From a virus, in the IMG/VR virus record IMGVR_UViG_3300030102_002467, positions 1 through 33,857 of that record: a stretch of 33,857 nt of DNA. The stretch is one strand, 5' to 3'. The translations under genes were made by a program, and so were the position numbers. How positions within the stretch are numbered: the first letter of the stretch is position 1; the number at the start of each line of letters is the position of its first letter. Shown piece by piece: positions 3,808 through 29,562 of this stretch. Under the pieces are notes generated by a model that saw only the letters and a program-made list of their open reading frames with translations, was not told the DNA's origin and did no database searches.

Positions 3808-4359
3808 TTATAACTCATCAGGCCAATCAGCTATGGGGGCGTTGCCAGTAGGCTGTGGCGGGTCTTGGCTGTCCATTGGCGTATCAAACAAAGCCATAAA
3901 AGCAGCATGGTCTGCTGCGTCTGTTATAGATTTTTCTATTGTGCCAGACTTAGTGCGAACAGCAGCCCTGTATGTTGTAACGTCAGATGGTATTGTTGCT
4001 TTGCTGTCCTCTGCTTTGCGTGTGACATACCAATCTGTTGGTGCAAGTAACCCTGCCGCTTGTTGCTTGATGATAGCCTTCCACTGGCTTTTAAGGCCCA
4101 CCGTCACTACCTGTTCACCCTTTTCATCTAAAATAGCCTTGTCGTTTTCATCAACAGCGTTGACATCATCCAATGCTTTAGGTGTGCTTGCATCCCAGTA
4201 AAACCTGTTATCAAAAGATGCTGGTGGGTCTTCCCACGCTAGCCCTGCCGCTTTCTTATCTGCGTCTGACCAGATAGCCCAGTTGGCAGGATGGGTTATG
4301 CCATCGGCAGACCAACTACGTCCTTCTCTAATTATTTTATTGCCTAACTTCCACGGCAT
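3808..4359 (-). CDS. Tail fibre assembly-like protein (183 aa)
   Basis: It lies directly downstream of two tail fibre genes and has a good Shine-Dalgarno (AGGAG) before ATG 4359. The first 90 residues hold a Trp-rich beta-type region (WKLGNKIIREGRSW, FDNRFYWD); the second half contains a KSQWKAIIKQQAAGLLAPTD helix, the WYVTRKAE motif and IPSDVTTYRAAVR. This latter half matches the pattern of phage tail fibre assembly chaperones, which help fold or trimerise the tip of an upstream fibre. The tip it serves would be that of the LamG/SPRY protein at 4372-7392. Function is inferred from pattern and position. Confidence 0.72.
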   Translation of the reverse strand: MPWKLGNKIIREGRSWSADGITHPANWAIWSDADKKAAGLAWEDPPASFDNRFYWDASTPKALDDVNAVDENDKAILDEKGEQVVTVGLKSQWKAIIKQQAAGLLAPTDWYVTRKAEDSKATIPSDVTTYRAAVRTKSGTIEKSITDAADHAAFMALFDTPMDSQDPPQPTGNAPIADWPDEL

Positions 4360-4371
4360 CGTTATCTCCTA

Positions 4372-7300
4372 TCATCGGGCGTTGGAATATTTTGCGGGTT
4401 GTTCTGCAAAGGCGAGGTAAATGTAAGTTTGCCCATTACCATTGAAGCCATTTCCATTTGTTCTTGGTTGAAATCCATTACTAAAAATGTGTAAAAGGTC
4501 ATTAGTGCTTTCAGCATTAGCGGCACTAGGTAACAGATATCTATTCGCTCCGTTGTAACCAAGACGCTTATTGTCAAATACAATCCAGTTTTGACCAGTA
4601 GCAGTTGTGGTTTTTAACAAAATCAGAGCCGGCCTAAATCCTGTTTGAACAAACACACCATCACTAGACGATCCATTGCCCGTGTATGAGCCGACCTTGC
4701 TGTAGCCATCAACCGAATGAAACGCATAGCAAACAAATTCACTGCCACTATTATTAATATTTAAATGAGACCCTAAACCAAAAACAGAAGATGTGGGTAA
4801 TGTATTCCAATTTCCTGTGCTAGTTGCTCCAGTTGTATCTAGTAGCAATCTTTGTGTGGTTGAAAACCCATCTACCCAAACAACCCAGTTATAGCTTGTA
4901 TCACGCCCCTTTATAATTAAAAATTCAGGTGTACTGTTTAAACCATGACCAACCGTAGCATTTGACCCTGTACCAGTATAAGTAATAATACTAAACCCCG
5001 CCTTAGTATTCGCAGACACAGACGATGTTATTGACCCATTGCTGTTGCTGACCGCAGAACCGCCAGCCAGCCAGTTCCATGCGACATAAGTATCACTGCT
5101 TGCATTTACAGCAGTGTTTGACCCCAAAGAAAATCCATTAGAATCAAATGATGTTAACCCAGTAGACTGTGTAAGTTCAGCATCTGTGGAATCAGACTTA
5201 ATTCTTTTTGTCGCTCCTCTTACTGAGTCAAAAATAGCGTGAGAAGGAGTTCCGCTTCGTTCTTTAATCCACACCCAATTGGGCTGAAAAGACAATGATG
5301 AAATGCTTTGTGATGTACCATTACCAGTATACAGCACCGTATTAAAATAATCTGCTGGTTCTTCGTCCTGTGCAGGGTCTATAGCAGGGTCAGGCAGGTT
5401 GGCTGAACAAAGAGCTAAGAAGCCAGACGGTGGGCTGTAAAAAAAGTCACCGATGCCATTGCCATCTGCATTACCTTGCGCTGTTTCTGTGCCAGCAAAT
5501 GAGCCGTCTTGACCAAAGTTGTAAATAGAAGAACTTGTATCTCCACCACTAGCATTTTGAAAATAAACTGGAAAATTAGAAGCATCAGGCACAGTTAAGC
5601 TAGAACCTAATTGAGAATTATTTTGATAAACATCTAATGTTCCACTGTCAGCATCATATGCTAAACCTATAATATCTCCAGTTGCCCAACCACTTGTTTT
5701 TGCTGTAACCAAACTGCCATTTGCATATAATCCACCACCGCTTGAATTAAGAGCATAAAAACCAGCACCACCAGAATAAACGCCAGCATCGGTAATAACA
5801 TTGTTTACTCCGTGCGTACCCCAGTAAACTGAAGCATAAGGCTCTGTTAACCTTACTTCCCAATACCATTTTCCAGAGGAAACTTCAAAAGTAGAACCAC
5901 CCGTTCCATTGCCGCCACCAGTTTTAAGGTTACCCTCAGAAAGAGTCATTACAGATTGTTTATTTAAAGAGTTTAGCACACACCAGTTATTCGTAGGGCT
6001 ATCTAACACCACATCTGTAGACTGTAAATTAGCAGGATTGAAATGATTGCCTACACCTGATGCATCAAGCCCATATCCCCCAGCTAATTCCTGAATCTCT
6101 GCATCTGTTAATACACGGTTGAATATCCTAATTTGGTCTAATACACAGGCATAAAAAACAGGTGAATATGCAAAATAAGCAAACGATGTCTCATTGCTGT
6201 ACGCAGTTGAGTCTGTTGTTGTGTCTGATCCTGCATAGTTTCCGTCTACCCATAACTTACCTGTAGCTGTTCCGCCGCTAACAGATTTTGTAAATGCAAA
6301 ATGATGCCACTCACCGTCTGTTATTACTTCTGAGCCTGTAACTGTAATGCTGTTCCCATTTGAAGCATGACCAGTAGCCGCCTCAAGATAACCGCTTCCT
6401 TGCGAGTAAATGGCAAAGTAACCACCACCAGTGCCAGCGTTTCCATCAAAAACCAAATATTGGTAAGTTGCTGAAACCTGAAACCAGCCAGAAACTGAAA
6501 TATCTATATCGGTAGCATGTGAACCCAAAAGATGAGTACCAGCTACCCACTTACTGCTTGTTCCATTGAAAACACCAGCTTGAGTTCCAACAATACCATC
6601 AGTAAATGTAACGCTTGTCGTTGTTCCGTTGTAATTGCCGCCAGCATCAACAATGCTTCCATCGAATAAATAGGTAGCTACAGCGGATGAGTCACCGAAA
6701 ATATCGTGTGTTGTGTAGGCACTATCCGTGCCTAAATCCCCAGATTCTTTAAAAGTTAGATGAAACCCGTTTGTACCGTATGAGCCAGAATATTCTTTAG
6801 GTATCCAAATGCCAGCTTTTGTTTCACCAAATGAAGTAGGGTTTAGACTAGTTCCGTCAACAAAGTGCATCTCTGCTATATAACCATCGAAATGTTGACC
6901 AGTTCCCCCAAACCTTCCTATATTATGTGCTACTGTGTGGTTAAAATAACCGTTTGTGCTGGCCCTTGTTTCAGTCTGTAAATCTTGTTGGACGCCGTTA
7001 ACATAAATCTCAGAACTTGACCCGCTTCTTTGAACTAGGATGTGATACCAAGCAGACGTGTCTCTAAATGAACCGGACGTTTTTAGATGGTTTTGAACTG
7101 AACCACCGATGAAGTATATGTATCTGATACAGTCGTCACTATCAAATCTAATGTATTCAAAGTCATTTGCCCCAGAATATGCACTAAACATGTTAGCTGA
7201 AGAATAACTTAAATTCCCACGCTTTATCCACGCACTCCATGTCCATGTTGTTCTGTTAGATGAAGATGAAGGCGTTCGAGTAAGCTGTGGGCTATCACCA

Positions 7301-26942: not shown

Positions 26943-26997
26943 AATGTATGGAATGTTTGCCTAGCATTGTGAGCAATGTTTGCTGATCAATGTATGC
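26943..26997. repeat. AATGT[AT]TG short repeat cluster (iteron-like)
   Basis: AATGTATGG at 26943, AATGTTTGC at 26952, AATGTTTGC at 26975 and AATGTATGC at 26989 lie in the same orientation, and further AATGT cores occur at 26929 and 27030. Spacing is irregular (9, 23 and 14 bases). They sit immediately upstream of the early promoter, so they could be binding sites for a phage regulator or replication initiator. No initiator gene is recognised in the window. Confidence 0.5.
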
Positions 26998-27004
26998 AAT
27001 TCTT

Positions 27005-27024: not shown

Positions 27025-27053
27025 TTGACAATGTGAACACTGTTCACTATATA
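27025..27053 (+). promoter_or_regulatory. Early promoter with palindromic operator in the spacer
   Basis: TTGACA (27025-27030) matches the -35 consensus exactly, and after exactly 17 bases comes TATATA (27048-27053), five of six for the -10 box. The spacer is almost entirely a perfect palindrome, GTGAACA-C-TGTTCAC (27033-27047). A protein dimer bound there would block RNA polymerase, so this is probably a repressed early promoter read by host sigma70 polymerase. The Xre proteins at 29303 or 30845 are the candidate binders. Confidence 0.72.
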
Positions 27054-27060
27054 TAAGATA

Positions 27061-27085
27061 TAGCAAACAAATATTGAGGATCAAA
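27061..27085 (+). repeat. Repeated early leader TAGCAAACA...GGATCAA, copy 1
   Basis: First of about eight related leaders in front of early genes: 27061, 27255, 27458, 27665 (degenerate), 28088, 28711, 28986 (only the GGATCAA half) and 29261. The consensus is TAGCAAACA, then 3-8 bases, then [AG]AGGATCAA, then 2-8 bases and ATG. The AAGGA part serves as Shine-Dalgarno; the TAGCAAACA part is outside any ribosome-binding need and so has another reason to be conserved. Several copies begin at the stop codon of the previous gene. Confidence 0.82.
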
Positions 27086-27089
27086 TAGA

Positions 27090-27257
27090 ATGTTAAACAC
27101 CATCAAAAAAGTAAGAACGGGCGGCAAAGGCTCGAAGATGATCGCCTATTATATACGCCGTGGCTATATAATCATTGGATATCATCATGGTTCAGTGGCT
27201 CTTAAAAAGTCAAAGTCTTGTGAATTAAAACCTACAATCACGATTGCAGCAAAATAG
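27090..27257 (+). CDS. Small basic early protein (55 aa)
   Basis: ATG at 27090, TAG at 27255-27257. It follows the early promoter by about 40 bases and the first repeated leader, with GAGGA nine bases before the start. The product is basic with a Gly/Lys-rich N-terminal part and a central YYIRRGYIIIGYHHGS stretch, rich in Tyr and Ile, probably one beta hairpin. It is the first gene transcribed from the early promoter, a position where small host-takeover proteins are often encoded. No family recognised. Confidence 0.68.
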   Translation: MLNTIKKVRTGGKGSKMIAYYIRRGYIIIGYHHGSVALKKSKSCELKPTITIAAK

Positions 27258-27282
27258 CAAACAAATATAAAGGATCAAAACA

Positions 27283-27456
27283 ATGGACAATAAAGACACA
27301 ATTTTATTTATGACACTTGGCATGGTTTTTATGTTATCGGCAATTATTGATATGCTGACTCAAGTTATGCCGCATCCATTCCTAACCATTCTGTTAGGTG
27401 TTACAGGCCTTGTTACTTTCTGGCTTCCTATGATTGTAACAAGCCTTGATGATTAA
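27283..27456 (+). CDS. Small two-TM membrane protein (57 aa), early
   Basis: ATG at 27283 is preceded by the second leader copy (TAGCAAACA at 27255, AAAGGATCAA). The product has two hydrophobic segments, about 7-27 (ILFMTLGMVFMLSAIIDML) and 33-52 (FLTILLGVTGLVTFWLPMI), separated by a Pro-containing turn and ended by acidic residues. Early membrane proteins of phages may block superinfection or alter the host membrane, but nothing identifies this one. It is not beside the lysis genes and so is unlikely to be the holin. Confidence 0.68.
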   Translation: MDNKDTILFMTLGMVFMLSAIIDMLTQVMPHPFLTILLGVTGLVTFWLPMIVTSLDD

Positions 27457-27480
27457 TCAGCAAACGGAAGGATCAAAACA

Positions 27481-27675
27481 ATGTCTTATAAAGATATCTC
27501 AAATTATGATATTGCCATGGATATTTACCAAAAGATAATGGCAGCTAAAACAATGTATGCCTGTAAATACGGATCATTGAGATATAATCCAGAACAAAAT
27601 CATATAAATATAAATGAGATTGTTGAGCATTTATATTTTATCAAACACACTGATAAAACACCTATAGCAGACTAA
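27481..27675 (+). CDS. Small early protein (64 aa)
   Basis: ATG at 27481 follows the third leader copy (GCAAACGGAAGGATCAAAACA). The product is rich in Asn, Ile, Tyr and Lys with an N-terminal DISNYDIAMDIYQKIMAAK helix and a NINEIVEHLYFIKH helix near the end. No membrane segment, cysteine pair or known motif. The end of the gene itself forms part of the degenerate fourth leader (TAGCAGACTAATGGAAGGATCAA). Confidence 0.7.
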   Translation: MSYKDISNYDIAMDIYQKIMAAKTMYACKYGSLRYNPEQNHININEIVEHLYFIKHTDKTPIAD

Positions 27676-27691
27676 TGGAAGGATCAAGCTA

Positions 27692-28006
27692 ATGACTAAG
27701 CAAAAAGCAAAACAATTCGTTGTGGCGTATCGTGAAAAGAAAGGCCGTAAAAAAGAGGACTGGAATCACGAAATGTATTTCACTTCCCTCATGGTTACTC
27801 ATATTGACGGAAAAGAGTTATCCTATGAAAACCAATTCGATCTTGGTTGGGTAAGAGCTAATTGCCACATCAAACACCAAGAAAAGTATTTTGGAAAAGA
27901 TCTAGAATACACAATCTTTATCCGGCCTTGTAATTGGGATGAGGCGGGTACAGTAAAACAATACACAGCCATTGTTGAGCCTTATGAGGAAAAAGAAACA
28001 GCGTAA
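27692..28006 (+). CDS. Early hypothetical protein (104 aa)
   Basis: ATG at 27692 follows GGAAGGATCAA. A basic N-terminal stretch (TKQKAKQFVVAYREKKGRKKED) is followed by mixed beta-type sequence with aromatic residues (EMYFTSLMVTHIDGK, LEYTIFIRPCNWDE) and an acidic end. One cysteine near the middle and one at about 83. No known domain. The stop is followed by a probable terminator hairpin (28019-28037), so some transcripts may end here. Confidence 0.72.
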   Translation: MTKQKAKQFVVAYREKKGRKKEDWNHEMYFTSLMVTHIDGKELSYENQFDLGWVRANCHIKHQEKYFGKDLEYTIFIRPCNWDEAGTVKQYTAIVEPYEEKETA

Positions 28007-28018
28007 AGATAACTGGTT

Positions 28019-28045
28019 AGGCCGTGTAATACGGCCTTGCCTTTT
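28019..28045 (+). terminator. Probable intrinsic terminator or attenuator within the early operon
   Basis: AGGCCGT (28019-28025), loop GTAAT, ACGGCCT (28031-28037) form a perfect 7-bp stem followed by TGCCTTTT. The short T-run after a two-base interruption suggests partial termination. It lies 13 bases after the stop of the 104-aa gene, and further early genes follow, so it probably lowers rather than ends transcription. Confidence 0.6.
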
Positions 28046-28112
28046 CAATATCTCAAAAGAGGTGTTGAAATGGCAAAAACGCCAACATAGCAAACAAAGG
28101 AAGGATCAAGCT

Positions 28113-28508
28113 ATGATAAACGCAAAACAAAAAGCCTTAATCAATAAGGGATATTCAGCAATACAAGGCTTAAACTTTTTGAGATGGGAACATTATCGTG
28201 AAGATCTGTATAAGATTGAAAAAGACTATGAAAAAAGCCATAGGCAATTTCAGTATGGTCGCAAACATGGCATGACCATTGATCAAGCTGCAAAGTATTT
28301 TGCTGTGAAACATATCCTTGAGGCATTAGAAAAGCCTGATCGGTATTCTGTCAGGGATTACTTGCATCTCAAAAAATCTGCATTCATGGCTCAGGCATTA
28401 GTGCAAGAATATCCGGACAAGATCAAAGATATGTTTTATGACTTTGACATAGAGGCATTTAAGGATCTGGATTATGTTCATATGATATCAGCTTGTGAAG
28501 CTAAATAA
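28113..28508 (+). CDS. Early hypothetical protein (131 aa)
   Basis: ATG at 28113 is chosen because it follows a full leader copy (TAGCAAACAAAGGAAGGATCAA at 28088-28109); the frame is open further upstream but through the hairpin. The product is helical and mixed-charge: KQKALINKGYSAIQGLNFLRW, LYKIEKDYEKSHRQFQYGRKHG, MTIDQAAKYFAVKHILEAL, and an acidic end. The IDQAAKYFAV helix could be an HTH-like element but the match is weak. The largest early gene; function unknown. Confidence 0.75.
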   Translation: MINAKQKALINKGYSAIQGLNFLRWEHYREDLYKIEKDYEKSHRQFQYGRKHGMTIDQAAKYFAVKHILEALEKPDRYSVRDYLHLKKSAFMAQALVQEYPDKIKDMFYDFDIEAFKDLDYVHMISACEAK

Positions 28509-28612
28509 TGTTTAGAAAGATAAACAACTTCCTAATCAAATACGAAAACTTATTAGCTGGCCTTGTCTTTATGGCTACAGTTTGGGGCTTTACAGTTTTA
28601 ATGATGATTTAA
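28508..28612 (+). CDS. Tiny membrane protein (34 aa), early
   Basis: ATG at 28508 overlaps the previous stop as TAATG and the frame ends with TAA at 28610-28612. A positively charged N-terminus (FRKINNFLIKYEN) is followed by one hydrophobic segment of about 19 residues (LLAGLVFMATVWGFTVLMM) at the very end. This is a typical single-pass phage miniprotein, expressed by coupling rather than with its own leader. It may modify a host membrane protein; no family known. Confidence 0.6.
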   Translation: MFRKINNFLIKYENLLAGLVFMATVWGFTVLMMI

Positions 28613-28631
28613 AGCCCTACAGCTTTTATGT

Positions 28632-28688
28632 CTGCCCTGTTTGGTGTCTACCTACCAGCAGGGCAGTGATAAACGCTGAGAAGCGTTT
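28632..28688 (+). terminator. Two tandem hairpins in a 120-bp early gap
   Basis: CTGCCCTG (28632-28639) pairs perfectly with CAGGGCAG (28659-28666), and AAACGC (28671-28676) with GCGTTT (28683-28688), loop TGAGAA. Neither is followed by a long T-run, so termination would be incomplete; RNA processing or protection of transcript ends is as likely. The gap ends with the next repeated leader (28711). Confidence 0.45.
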
Positions 28689-28732
28689 AAATCGCCAATA
28701 ATGGCACAACTAGCAAACAGGAAGGATCTGTT

Positions 28733-28981
28733 ATGACTAAAAAATCAGACTGGGAAATTAAAAGAGAAAAGCAAGCGGCAATAAATGACAAGGCCATGCA
28801 AGGTATGACCGCCGATCAGCTTGCCACAATAAAGGATCTTAAGAATCATTTGGGGCATTGCCTGTCTATGATTGCAGAAACAAACGATCTTTATATGTCT
28901 GACGTTGGCAAATTAGATAACTTGTTTCATAAGCTAAACAGGCATTTTAACATGGATCACAGCTACAGATCAGACGACTAA
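28733..28981 (+). CDS. Early hypothetical protein (82 aa)
   Basis: ATG at 28733 follows a full leader copy (TAGCAAACAGGAAGGATCTG). The product is helical and charged: KSDWEIKREKQAAINDKAMQG, MTADQLATIKDLKNHLGHCLSMI, then an Asn/Asp/Met-rich part. The TADQLATIKDL helix start resembles many short regulators but no complete HTH is visible. One cysteine; no membrane segment. Its stop lies within a 16-bp sequence repeated at the end of the next gene. Confidence 0.72.
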   Translation: MTKKSDWEIKREKQAAINDKAMQGMTADQLATIKDLKNHLGHCLSMIAETNDLYMSDVGKLDNLFHKLNRHFNMDHSYRSDD

Positions 28982-28991
28982 AAGAGAAAGG
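28976..28991 (+). repeat. 16-bp repeat around two early stop codons
   Basis: GACTAAAAGAGAAAGG occurs at 28976-28991 and again at 29207-29222, each time placing the TAA stop of an early gene inside the repeat. A degenerate form, GACTAGCAGAGAAAGATCAATG, follows the Xre gene at 29489. It shows that gene borders, not only starts, are shared between early genes, as expected from duplication or exchange of gene cassettes. Confidence 0.7.
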
Positions 28992-28999
28992 ATCAAACA

Positions 29000-29212
29000 A
29001 TGAATATTAAAGTAGTGCAATCTGGGCAAGGGTTGCTTTCTGTAATGATTAACAATCAATTTAGCGGTTGGAAGATTGCCAACAGATTAGGCATCTGGAA
29101 TCTATACAAGGCAGAAACAGATCTAAAATGGAATCATGATCTTGCGTCAGTGGTTCACAAACCAGATCAACTAAATAAACTTATCGCTGAATTTATTAAA
29201 GCAGCAGACTAA
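29000..29212 (+). CDS. Early hypothetical protein (70 aa)
   Basis: ATG at 29000 follows GAAAGGATCAAACA. The first half is beta-type (NIKVVQSGQGLLSVMINNQFSGWKIAN), with NLYKAETDLKWNHDLASVVHK and a final helix QLNKLIAEFIKAAD. Compact and soluble; possibly a small alpha-beta fold that binds a host protein. The stop lies in GACTAAAAGAGAAAGG, the same 16 bases found at the previous gene's stop (28976-28991). No family recognised. Confidence 0.72.
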   Translation: MNIKVVQSGQGLLSVMINNQFSGWKIANRLGIWNLYKAETDLKWNHDLASVVHKPDQLNKLIAEFIKAAD

Positions 29213-29217
29213 AAGAG

Positions 29218-29256
29218 AAAGGGCAACTAGGCTGTTGGATAACCTGGCTGCCCTTT
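29218..29256 (+). terminator. Hairpin before the early Xre regulator
   Basis: AAAGGGCA (29218-29225) pairs perfectly with TGCCCTTT (29249-29256); AGG/CCT inside can extend pairing. The 3' side ends in TTTCGATT, a short T-run only, so this may be a partial terminator or attenuator that lowers expression of the regulator gene at 29303 relative to upstream early genes. Confidence 0.5.
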
Positions 29257-29302
29257 CGATTAGCAAACATAGGCGGATCAAGGCCTATGAGAAAGGGATA
29301 AC

Positions 29303-29494
29303 ATGAATAAAGAAATGACACCAGCAGAATTTAAAGCTGAGAGAGAGAGGCTGAAAATTACAGCTAAACAATTCGGTCAACTGCTAGGCGTATCAGAAAG
29401 AGCAGTGTTTTACTACGAACATGGTCAGAGAAAGATACCCAAGCCAGTGCAGTTTTTAGTGCTGCTGTATAAAAAGCATGCAGTTGTAGACTAG
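29303..29494 (+). CDS. Xre/Cro-type HTH regulator (63 aa)
   Basis: The sequence has the full five-helix Cro/C1-like core: PAEFKAERERLKITAKQFGQLLGVSERAVFYYEHGQRKIP, with the recognition helix at about SERAVFYYEHG, and a short C-terminal helix (PVQFLVLLYKK). As a single-domain protein of Cro size it probably binds DNA as a dimer. It is the last gene of the early operon, so it may act back on the palindromic operator at 27033-27047. The leader upstream is a changed copy (TAGCAAACATAGGCGGATCAA at 29261), and AAAGGG serves as Shine-Dalgarno. Confidence 0.87.
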   Translation: MNKEMTPAEFKAERERLKITAKQFGQLLGVSERAVFYYEHGQRKIPKPVQFLVLLYKKHAVVD

Positions 29495-29524: not shown

Positions 29525-29562
29525 AGCAATGCTTTGTAATGATGCAGAGCATTGCTTTTTTT
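29525..29562 (+). terminator. Intrinsic terminator of the early operon
   Basis: AGCAATGCT (29525-29533) pairs perfectly with AGCATTGCT (29548-29556), followed directly by TTTTTTATTT. A classic rho-independent terminator 30 bases after the Xre gene. A 20-codon reading frame runs through it (from 29508, after a degenerate leader), which may be a relic of a deleted gene but is not called as one. Confidence 0.88.

Follow-up and report, generated by a model that had tools for sequence, protein, structure and literature searches.

A repeat before the early genes of a podovirus of the HTVC010P type is probably a start-associated leader for translation initiation

The IMG/VR virus record IMGVR_UViG_3300030102_002467, a 33.9-kb stretch of marine phage DNA (33,857 nucleotides (nt), 43.5% GC) that was analysed at its full length and is referred to as the window, possesses an early operon extending from a promoter at 27025-27053 via small open reading frames (ORFs) to the gene of a helix-turn-helix (HTH) regulator at 29303. 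Within this operon the sequence TAGCAAACA is repeated on the coding strand directly before the starts of early genes. Comparison with related phage sequences suggests that this repeat is probably a start-associated leader for translation initiation, by which the 5' untranslated region (5'UTR) of the early transcript is reused for each exchangeable gene.

Exact copies of TAGCAAACA occur at 27061, 27255, 28088, 28711 and 29261, i.e. five copies between 27001 and 29320, where first-order Markov simulations gave an expectation of 0.034 and a maximum of 2 in 5000 simulations. Outside the early region only two copies were found, at 4727 (plus strand) and 19392 (minus strand). Degraded copies are located at 27458 (CAGCAAACG) and 27665 (TAGCAGACT), and at 28986 only AAAGGATCAA is present, without TAGCAA. 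The initial annotation had counted about eight copies; five of them are full, two are partial and one lacks the first half. As had been claimed, the copies are followed by small ORFs that are unrelated to one another. The second half of the leader, AAGGATCAA, is exact at 27270, 27468, 27679, 28101 and 28988 and varies to GAGGATCAA at 27076 and AAGGATCTG at 28722. At 29275, GGATCAA forms the loop of a small hairpin and is not a Shine-Dalgarno sequence; the real one, AGAAAGGG, is located 3' of it. The composite TAGCAAACA-N2..10-GGATCAA was detected four times in forward and never in reverse orientation, and it was not found in the reversed control.

Relatives were obtained by a terminase search (80 IMG/VR loci), by a search with the HTH protein (12 loci) and, for further ones, by pattern searches; some of these loci are fragments. 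The core was compared in about 35 IMG/VR relatives with terminases 82-100% identical. The motif recurs in close relatives with a readable early region, and its absence there, which had been named as a sign against its importance, was not observed. In subclade A, to which the window belongs, the full leader recurs before many genes, and the GGATCAA part marks this subclade only. The core conserved in the relatives is shorter than the window repeat and consists of [AC]CTAGCAA just 5' of the Shine-Dalgarno sequence. By a k-mer scan of the other relatives, the deeper core ACTAGCAA was found without GGATCAA; subclade B comprises L013, L014, L016, L020, L023, L024, L026, L027, L029, L031, L035, L037, L039 and L050, and the core is also present in the low-GC loci L077 and L079. 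The cultured Pelagibacter phages Lederberg and Greip, whose terminases are about 50% identical, do not possess the leader. Broad pattern scans of IMG/VR outside this group yielded mostly single matches or matches within coding sequences, beside a few distant contigs with one or two copies of the motif.

The position of the core relative to the start codon is well defined in both subclades. The T of TAGCAA is located 17-30 nt before the ATG, mostly at -20 to -23. Within -32 to -14, the exact hexamer precedes 65 of 125 early genes in subclade A (1.4 expected; all at -20 to -29) and 54 of 107 in subclade B (1.2 expected; -17 to -30, mode -20/-21). Its positions are nearly invariant and the flanks are merely A-rich, an invariance that is somewhat inflated by the anchoring of the alignment on one mismatch. 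Nearly all leader genes start with ATG (148/149). Among genes that start at least 20 nt past the previous stop codon, the loose core was detected in 77/81 (A) and 56/74 (B) cases, compared with 12/44 and 2/33 among closer or overlapping genes (Fisher 1e-15 and 9e-12). Late or minus-strand genes showed loose matches only (2/31). In 19 cases (13 in A, 6 in B) the TAG of TAGCAA is at the same time the upstream stop codon. A role as a translation element, one of those proposed in the initial annotation, is in line with this placement, since the motif stands before ATGs only, together with a Shine-Dalgarno sequence, and is missing where the previous stop is close. Furthermore, in both subclades the early promoter is immediately followed by the leader. 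In L013, L014, L020, L021, L023 and L024 the ACTAGCAA leader also follows a second promoter, before the first gene of the replication-side operon, which is not the case in the window. The first leader of the window precedes unrelated first genes in L004, L009 and L087. Its occurrence both behind the promoter and before internal genes that start independently suggests, by position, that the leader is a repeated early 5'UTR.

The leaders also coincide with the borders of exchanged DNA. In 20 operons of subclade A, 51 protein families are shuffled between a fixed promoter and the fixed HTH gene. If homology blocks are defined as DNA at least 85% identical between subclade A operons, 58% of the block ends fall within -32 to +12 of a start (14% for random positions), and block beginnings are found in the same interval (35%) or at the beginnings of spacers. 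A homology break was present at 83 of 87 starts with a leader versus 26 of 36 leaderless starts. As these breaks coincide with leader starts, the leader bounds exchangeable cassettes.

Some copies of the leader are preceded by structured RNA. Three spacers of subclade A (spacers I to III) are constant in length, with about 105, 118 and 87 nt between stop and start, irrespective of the genes on either side. For spacer I, 27 pairs were evaluated in 16 relatives; 98.4% of the cells are paired, and 56 double-change cells were counted compared with 16.8 in shuffles, whereas the covariation collapses in slid controls. A three-way junction and three separate hairpins are indistinguishable here, because the outer closing helix does not vary. 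The first hairpin, H1, is followed by TTTT and resembles a terminator. Spacer II showed five doubly changed pairs in 14 relatives, and its 3' segment is conserved in all clades. In the hairpin of leader 8, before the HTH gene, the stem covaries and the GGATCAA loop is invariant in 13/13 relatives, which suggests that GGAUCAA is constrained by something other than its pairing with the ribosome. The GGA is thereby placed in a loop, a CsrA-like arrangement that is absent in subclade B. A search of Rfam with the spacers of the window gave no family match, and promoters in spacers I to III did not exceed the shuffled level.

In subclade B, spacers that precede the leader can be read as hammerhead ribozymes, of type I in L013, L016, L029, L031 and L038 and of type II in L023, L031, L035 and L039 (coordinates: L029, reverse complement, 3898-3951; L031, 8227-8280 and 9587-9640). 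The core CUGANGA...GAAA...UH and three paired stems were found in all eight of these loci, with exact cores, 100% of cells paired and compensatory changes. The Rfam model RAGATH-1-hammerhead matched L029 with 28.1 bits, which is under the gathering score of 56.3. The predicted cut lies upstream of TAGCAA and would give the mRNA a new 5' end; for type I it would leave a short 5' region able to form a hairpin (UGUCAUAAGACA) ahead of AACACUAGCAA. When stem II shared by the type I forms, CTTAATGAG, was searched for, 49 copies were obtained in 47 IMG/VR contigs. Nearly all of these are complete hammerheads located a few tens of nucleotides upstream of a ribosome-binding site, and ten were flagged with the leader, two of them (L277 and L283) probably by chance. 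Neither the window nor any other locus of subclade A contains a hammerhead core.

The window carries spacer I, an RNA with strong covariation, at the position taken by a hammerhead in relatives. This spacer may represent a processing element or ribozyme not described so far and, by analogy, may do the job of the hammerheads in the window.

Taken as a mechanism, the 5'UTR (A)CUAGCAA-(0-10 nt)-AAGGA-(5-9 nt)-AUG of the early transcript would be copied before each early gene that starts translation independently, and unrelated early genes would be exchanged as cassettes behind it. The leader would act as RNA. The spacers, hammerheads in relatives and other structures in subclade A, might divide the transcript and create or insulate 5' ends, so that several leaders would provide new 5' ends similar to the one of the RNA made from the promoter. 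Ribosomes would be recruited at the leaders, genes close behind a stop codon would use coupled re-initiation, and either the ribosome or a trans-acting factor would recognise UAGCAA.

Several points weigh against this interpretation. The relatives share ancestry, so that the counts are not independent, and the gene calls rest on our own heuristic. The association of the leader with intergenic distance is partly geometric, because the leader itself takes up about 25 nt. The spacing between TAGCAA and the Shine-Dalgarno sequence is variable, within about 10 nt, and this speaks against a single rigid contact with the ribosome. The leaders are hardly more open than composition-matched shuffles (0.677 vs 0.667, p 0.06); low structure therefore does not explain the fixed bases. 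Finally, the window possesses no hammerhead, and transcript cleavage is assumed there by analogy only.

The strongest rival explanation is a translational operator, in which an RNA-binding factor (a RegA- or CsrA-like protein or a small RNA, of phage or host) would read UAGCAA and switch early translation jointly; in subclade A, GGAUCAA would be recognised as well. This is a tentative possibility, and it could be part of the same mechanism as the leader. Six bases are fixed beyond the need of a Shine-Dalgarno sequence, and the loop of leader 8 is kept under a covarying stem though the Shine-Dalgarno sequence is elsewhere, so that something besides anti-Shine-Dalgarno pairing appears to preserve it. 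A precedent exists in phage T4, where a single protein can act at the start region of about 30 early mRNAs to repress them (PMC3014915). However, no candidate factor was identified, a bipartite site cannot be general as subclade B has no GGATCAA, and the distance between both parts varies. The control of early mRNAs by RegA and RegB of T4 resembles the present case in that it acts on many of these mRNAs jointly, at their start region, but RegA sites have no clear shared sequence, RegB cuts GGAG, and no such protein was identified here (PMC3014915). A more far-reaching version is rather doubtful: UAGCAA might be the code for a dedicated trans factor that switches the whole early set, with ribozymes or structures freeing leaders as new 5' ends. 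If this were true, any gene landing behind the leader would join the early programme, and a post-transcriptional regulon built for cassette exchange would result.

It is unlikely that the repeat is simply a good ribosome-binding site that was recently duplicated, with a functionless TAGCAA. The leader is A-rich and little structured with an AAGGA, and its copies in an operon might have arisen by recent duplication. On the other hand, TAGCAA is kept across the subclades though flanks, Shine-Dalgarno wording and genes differ, and the late genes of the same phage manage without it. An explanation by generic openness or of the S1 type was rejected, as the leaders are not more open than shuffles.

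Very unlikely is a recombination seam only, that is, a short shared sequence kept for gene exchange without a role in expression. The proposal of a seam, made in the initial annotation, holds as far as a boundary is concerned, since homology breaks concentrate at leaders and unrelated genes occupy the same slot behind them; that the leader causes the exchange is not implied. Such a seam leaves the fixed distance to the ATG, the restriction to independent starts and the presence in the first 5'UTR unexplained. Twenty-odd bases are also short for homologous exchange, and breaks occur at most leaderless starts, too.

Even less probable is TAGCAA as an RNA cleavage site that yields single-gene early mRNAs, although structured spacers or hammerheads stand directly 5' of some leaders and the 5' end of the transcript is predicted at the first copy. 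The hammerhead cut is predicted well upstream of TAGCAA and not within it, many leaders directly follow a stop codon without any structure, and in 19 cases the TAG itself is the upstream stop codon. The processing site suggested earlier is thus not to be sought at TAGCAA; what stands of it are the covarying spacers, and the hammerheads of relatives, immediately upstream of some leaders.

Least probable is a DNA site, namely a half-operator or stoperator to which the phage repressor would bind. In its favour, AGCAAACA is contained in the AGCAAACATTGCT palindromes that precede the early promoter (at about 26955-26998), most clade A loci holding the promoter have TGTTTGC repeats upstream, and the leader is asymmetric, in one orientation and confined to the early region like the L5 stoperators. 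Subclade B and L102, however, keep TAGCAA leaders without the upstream TGTTTGC repeat, and binding to DNA would not account for the link with start codons and intergenic distance. As a general reading the half-operator was rejected on account of these missing repeats; the match to a stoperator-type operator is partial and found upstream in clade A only.

According to the initial annotation no described system has such a motif. This does not apply to the kind of element, as the start-associated sequence (SAS) of cluster K mycobacteriophages, with the consensus GGGATAGGAGCCC (PMC3203893; PMC11373665; PMC12699233), is of the same kind. Both are short asymmetric repeats that include the Shine-Dalgarno sequence, stand in one orientation directly before starts, mostly ATG, and sometimes overlap the upstream stop codon. 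Both precede non-structural genes of different families with larger upstream gaps, and both are conserved beyond the pairing with rRNA; the features by which a SAS is recognised were found here, too. The sequences are unrelated, however, and the fixed part is here a separate hexamer 5' of the Shine-Dalgarno sequence at variable distance. As the leader is unlike the cluster K consensus, it is the same kind of element and not a member of that family. About half of the SAS genes possess inverted repeats termed ESAS, which are read as DNA sites or promoters, whereas the upstream spacers here are covarying RNA structures without promoters. In the literature searched, SAS was the only close precedent, and nothing on the present motif was found. 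The kind of element is therefore already known from SAS and ESAS; the motif sequence, the arrangement of distances, the structured spacers, the ribozymes and the cassette traffic differ or are new.

Other known systems are less similar. PeSLs of T4-type phages are composite promoter-terminator motifs (Arbiol 2010 and Comeau 2014, as cited in PMC4503421). As described there, they likewise are repeated regulatory elements of an early region that mark seams of heavy gene shuffling and have stem-loops adjacent. The internal elements here have hairpins, too, but promoters do not exceed the chance level in them, and their association is with the ribosome-binding site. Clusters of hammerheads of types I and II between prophage genes were suggested to cut long phage transcripts into single-gene mRNAs, and one such cluster flanks the anti-restriction gene ardA (PMC3088659). 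Here, the hammerheads occur in relatives and not in the window, and each is then followed by a constant translation leader. The L5 stoperators, as mentioned in PMC3203893, are likewise short and asymmetric and recur in a single orientation with respect to transcription; as repressor DNA sites they differ from the leader, for which the tie to the ATG argues otherwise.

Early regions of phages are hotspots of small take-over and anti-defence genes, and the leader provides a sequence handle on them: an ORF 17-30 nt behind ACTAGCAA and a Shine-Dalgarno sequence in these phages is an early cassette. The leader furthermore represents a second, independent case of the mycobacteriophage-type SAS, the role of which is still open, here with hammerheads or structured spacers directly upstream. 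With this arrangement of leaders and spacers, the question why phages place ribozymes between genes becomes testable.

Coordinates of the features of the early operon are given in Table 1.

Table 1. Features of the early operon in the window (aa, amino acids).
Feature	Position	Strand	Remarks
Early promoter	27025..27053	+	TTGACA-17-TATATA, read directly; inverted repeat GTGAACACTGTTCAC (27033-27047) between the hexamers
Leader 1	27061..27089	+	TAGCAAACAAATATTGAGGATCAAATAGA; at predicted 5' end of early transcript
Early gene 1	27090..27257	+	55 aa; its TAG stop doubles as TAG of leader 2
Leader 2	27255..27282	+	TAGCAAACAAATATAAAGGATCAAAACA
Early gene 2	27283..27456	+	57 aa; family F0, present in most relatives
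Leader 3, degenerate	27458..27480	+	CAGCAAACGGAAGGATCAAAACA; relatives carry TTAGCAAACGAAAGGATC at this slot
Early gene 3	27481..27675	+	64 aa
Leader 4, degenerate	27665..27691	+	TAGCAGACTAATGGAAGGATCAAGCTA; within 3' end of gene 3
Early gene 4	27692..28006	+	104 aa
Spacer I	28007..28087	+	two strong hairpins and a closing or third hairpin; alternatively drawn as three-way junction
Leader 5	28088..28112	+	TAGCAAACAAAGGAAGGATCAAGCT
Early gene 5	28113..28508	+	131 aa; family F14
Early gene 6	28508..28612	+	34 aa; hydrophobic, leaderless, abuts gene 5, resembles family F2 of relatives
Spacer II	28621..28710	+	long hairpin, second hairpin, then conserved TTTAAATCGCCAATAATGGC segment
Leader 6	28711..28732	+	TAGCAAACAGGAAGGATCTGTT
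Early gene 7	28733..28981	+	82 aa
Shine-Dalgarno of gene 8	28984..28999	+	GAGAAAGGATCAAACA, no TAGCAA; gene 18 nt from previous stop, typical of closely packed genes
Early gene 8	29000..29212	+	70 aa
Spacer III	29213..29260	+	hairpin AAAGGGCAACTAGG...CCTGGCTGCCCTTT; covariation in 13 relatives
Leader 8	29261..29302	+	TAGCAAACA; hairpin CATAGGC-GGATCAAG-GCCTATG (29268-29289) with GGATCAA loop; Shine-Dalgarno AGAAAGGG
HTH/XRE-type regulator	29303..29494	+	63 aa; constant final gene of operon; PF01381 above cut-off, phrog_14076

The gene order of the window is that of an HTVC010P-type podovirus, with the genes for terminase, connector and tail encoded by the minus strand and the early genes by the plus strand. 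The terminase shares about 50% identity with those of Pelagibacter phage isolates; a contig search of sequenced bacterial genomes revealed no relative of it, and no DNA similar to the early region was found in the phage records searched. The gene of the HTH regulator is present in relatives whose locus reaches that far. The exchangeable cassettes include ArdC-like anti-restriction and Gp88-like proteins. ArdC-like early genes were seen in L085 (1789; PF08401 + PF18818), L090, L091, L029 (3981) and L027 (4717), some of them directly behind spacer I or a hammerhead. A tiny hydrophobic 34-aa protein, encoded at 28508-28612 in the window and represented by family F2 in relatives, is kept directly before spacer II in many operons of subclade A. 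A good intrinsic terminator (29525-29556; 14-pair stem and T-run) after the HTH gene closes the early operon of the window.

Beside these genes, the region around the early promoter differs among the phages. Upstream of it, at 26950-27000, the window carries the repeats AATGTTTGC / AGCAATGTTTGCT, which occur in most subclade A loci and are absent in subclade B; they are possible operators. In relatives, a promoter with the same spacing is found at the same place, but with different inverted repeats. Between the -35 and -10 hexamers these vary from phage to phage (GTGAACACTGTTCAC, GGCAAGTATTGCC and TGCAATCCTTGCA), as if the specificities of the putative repressors diverged.

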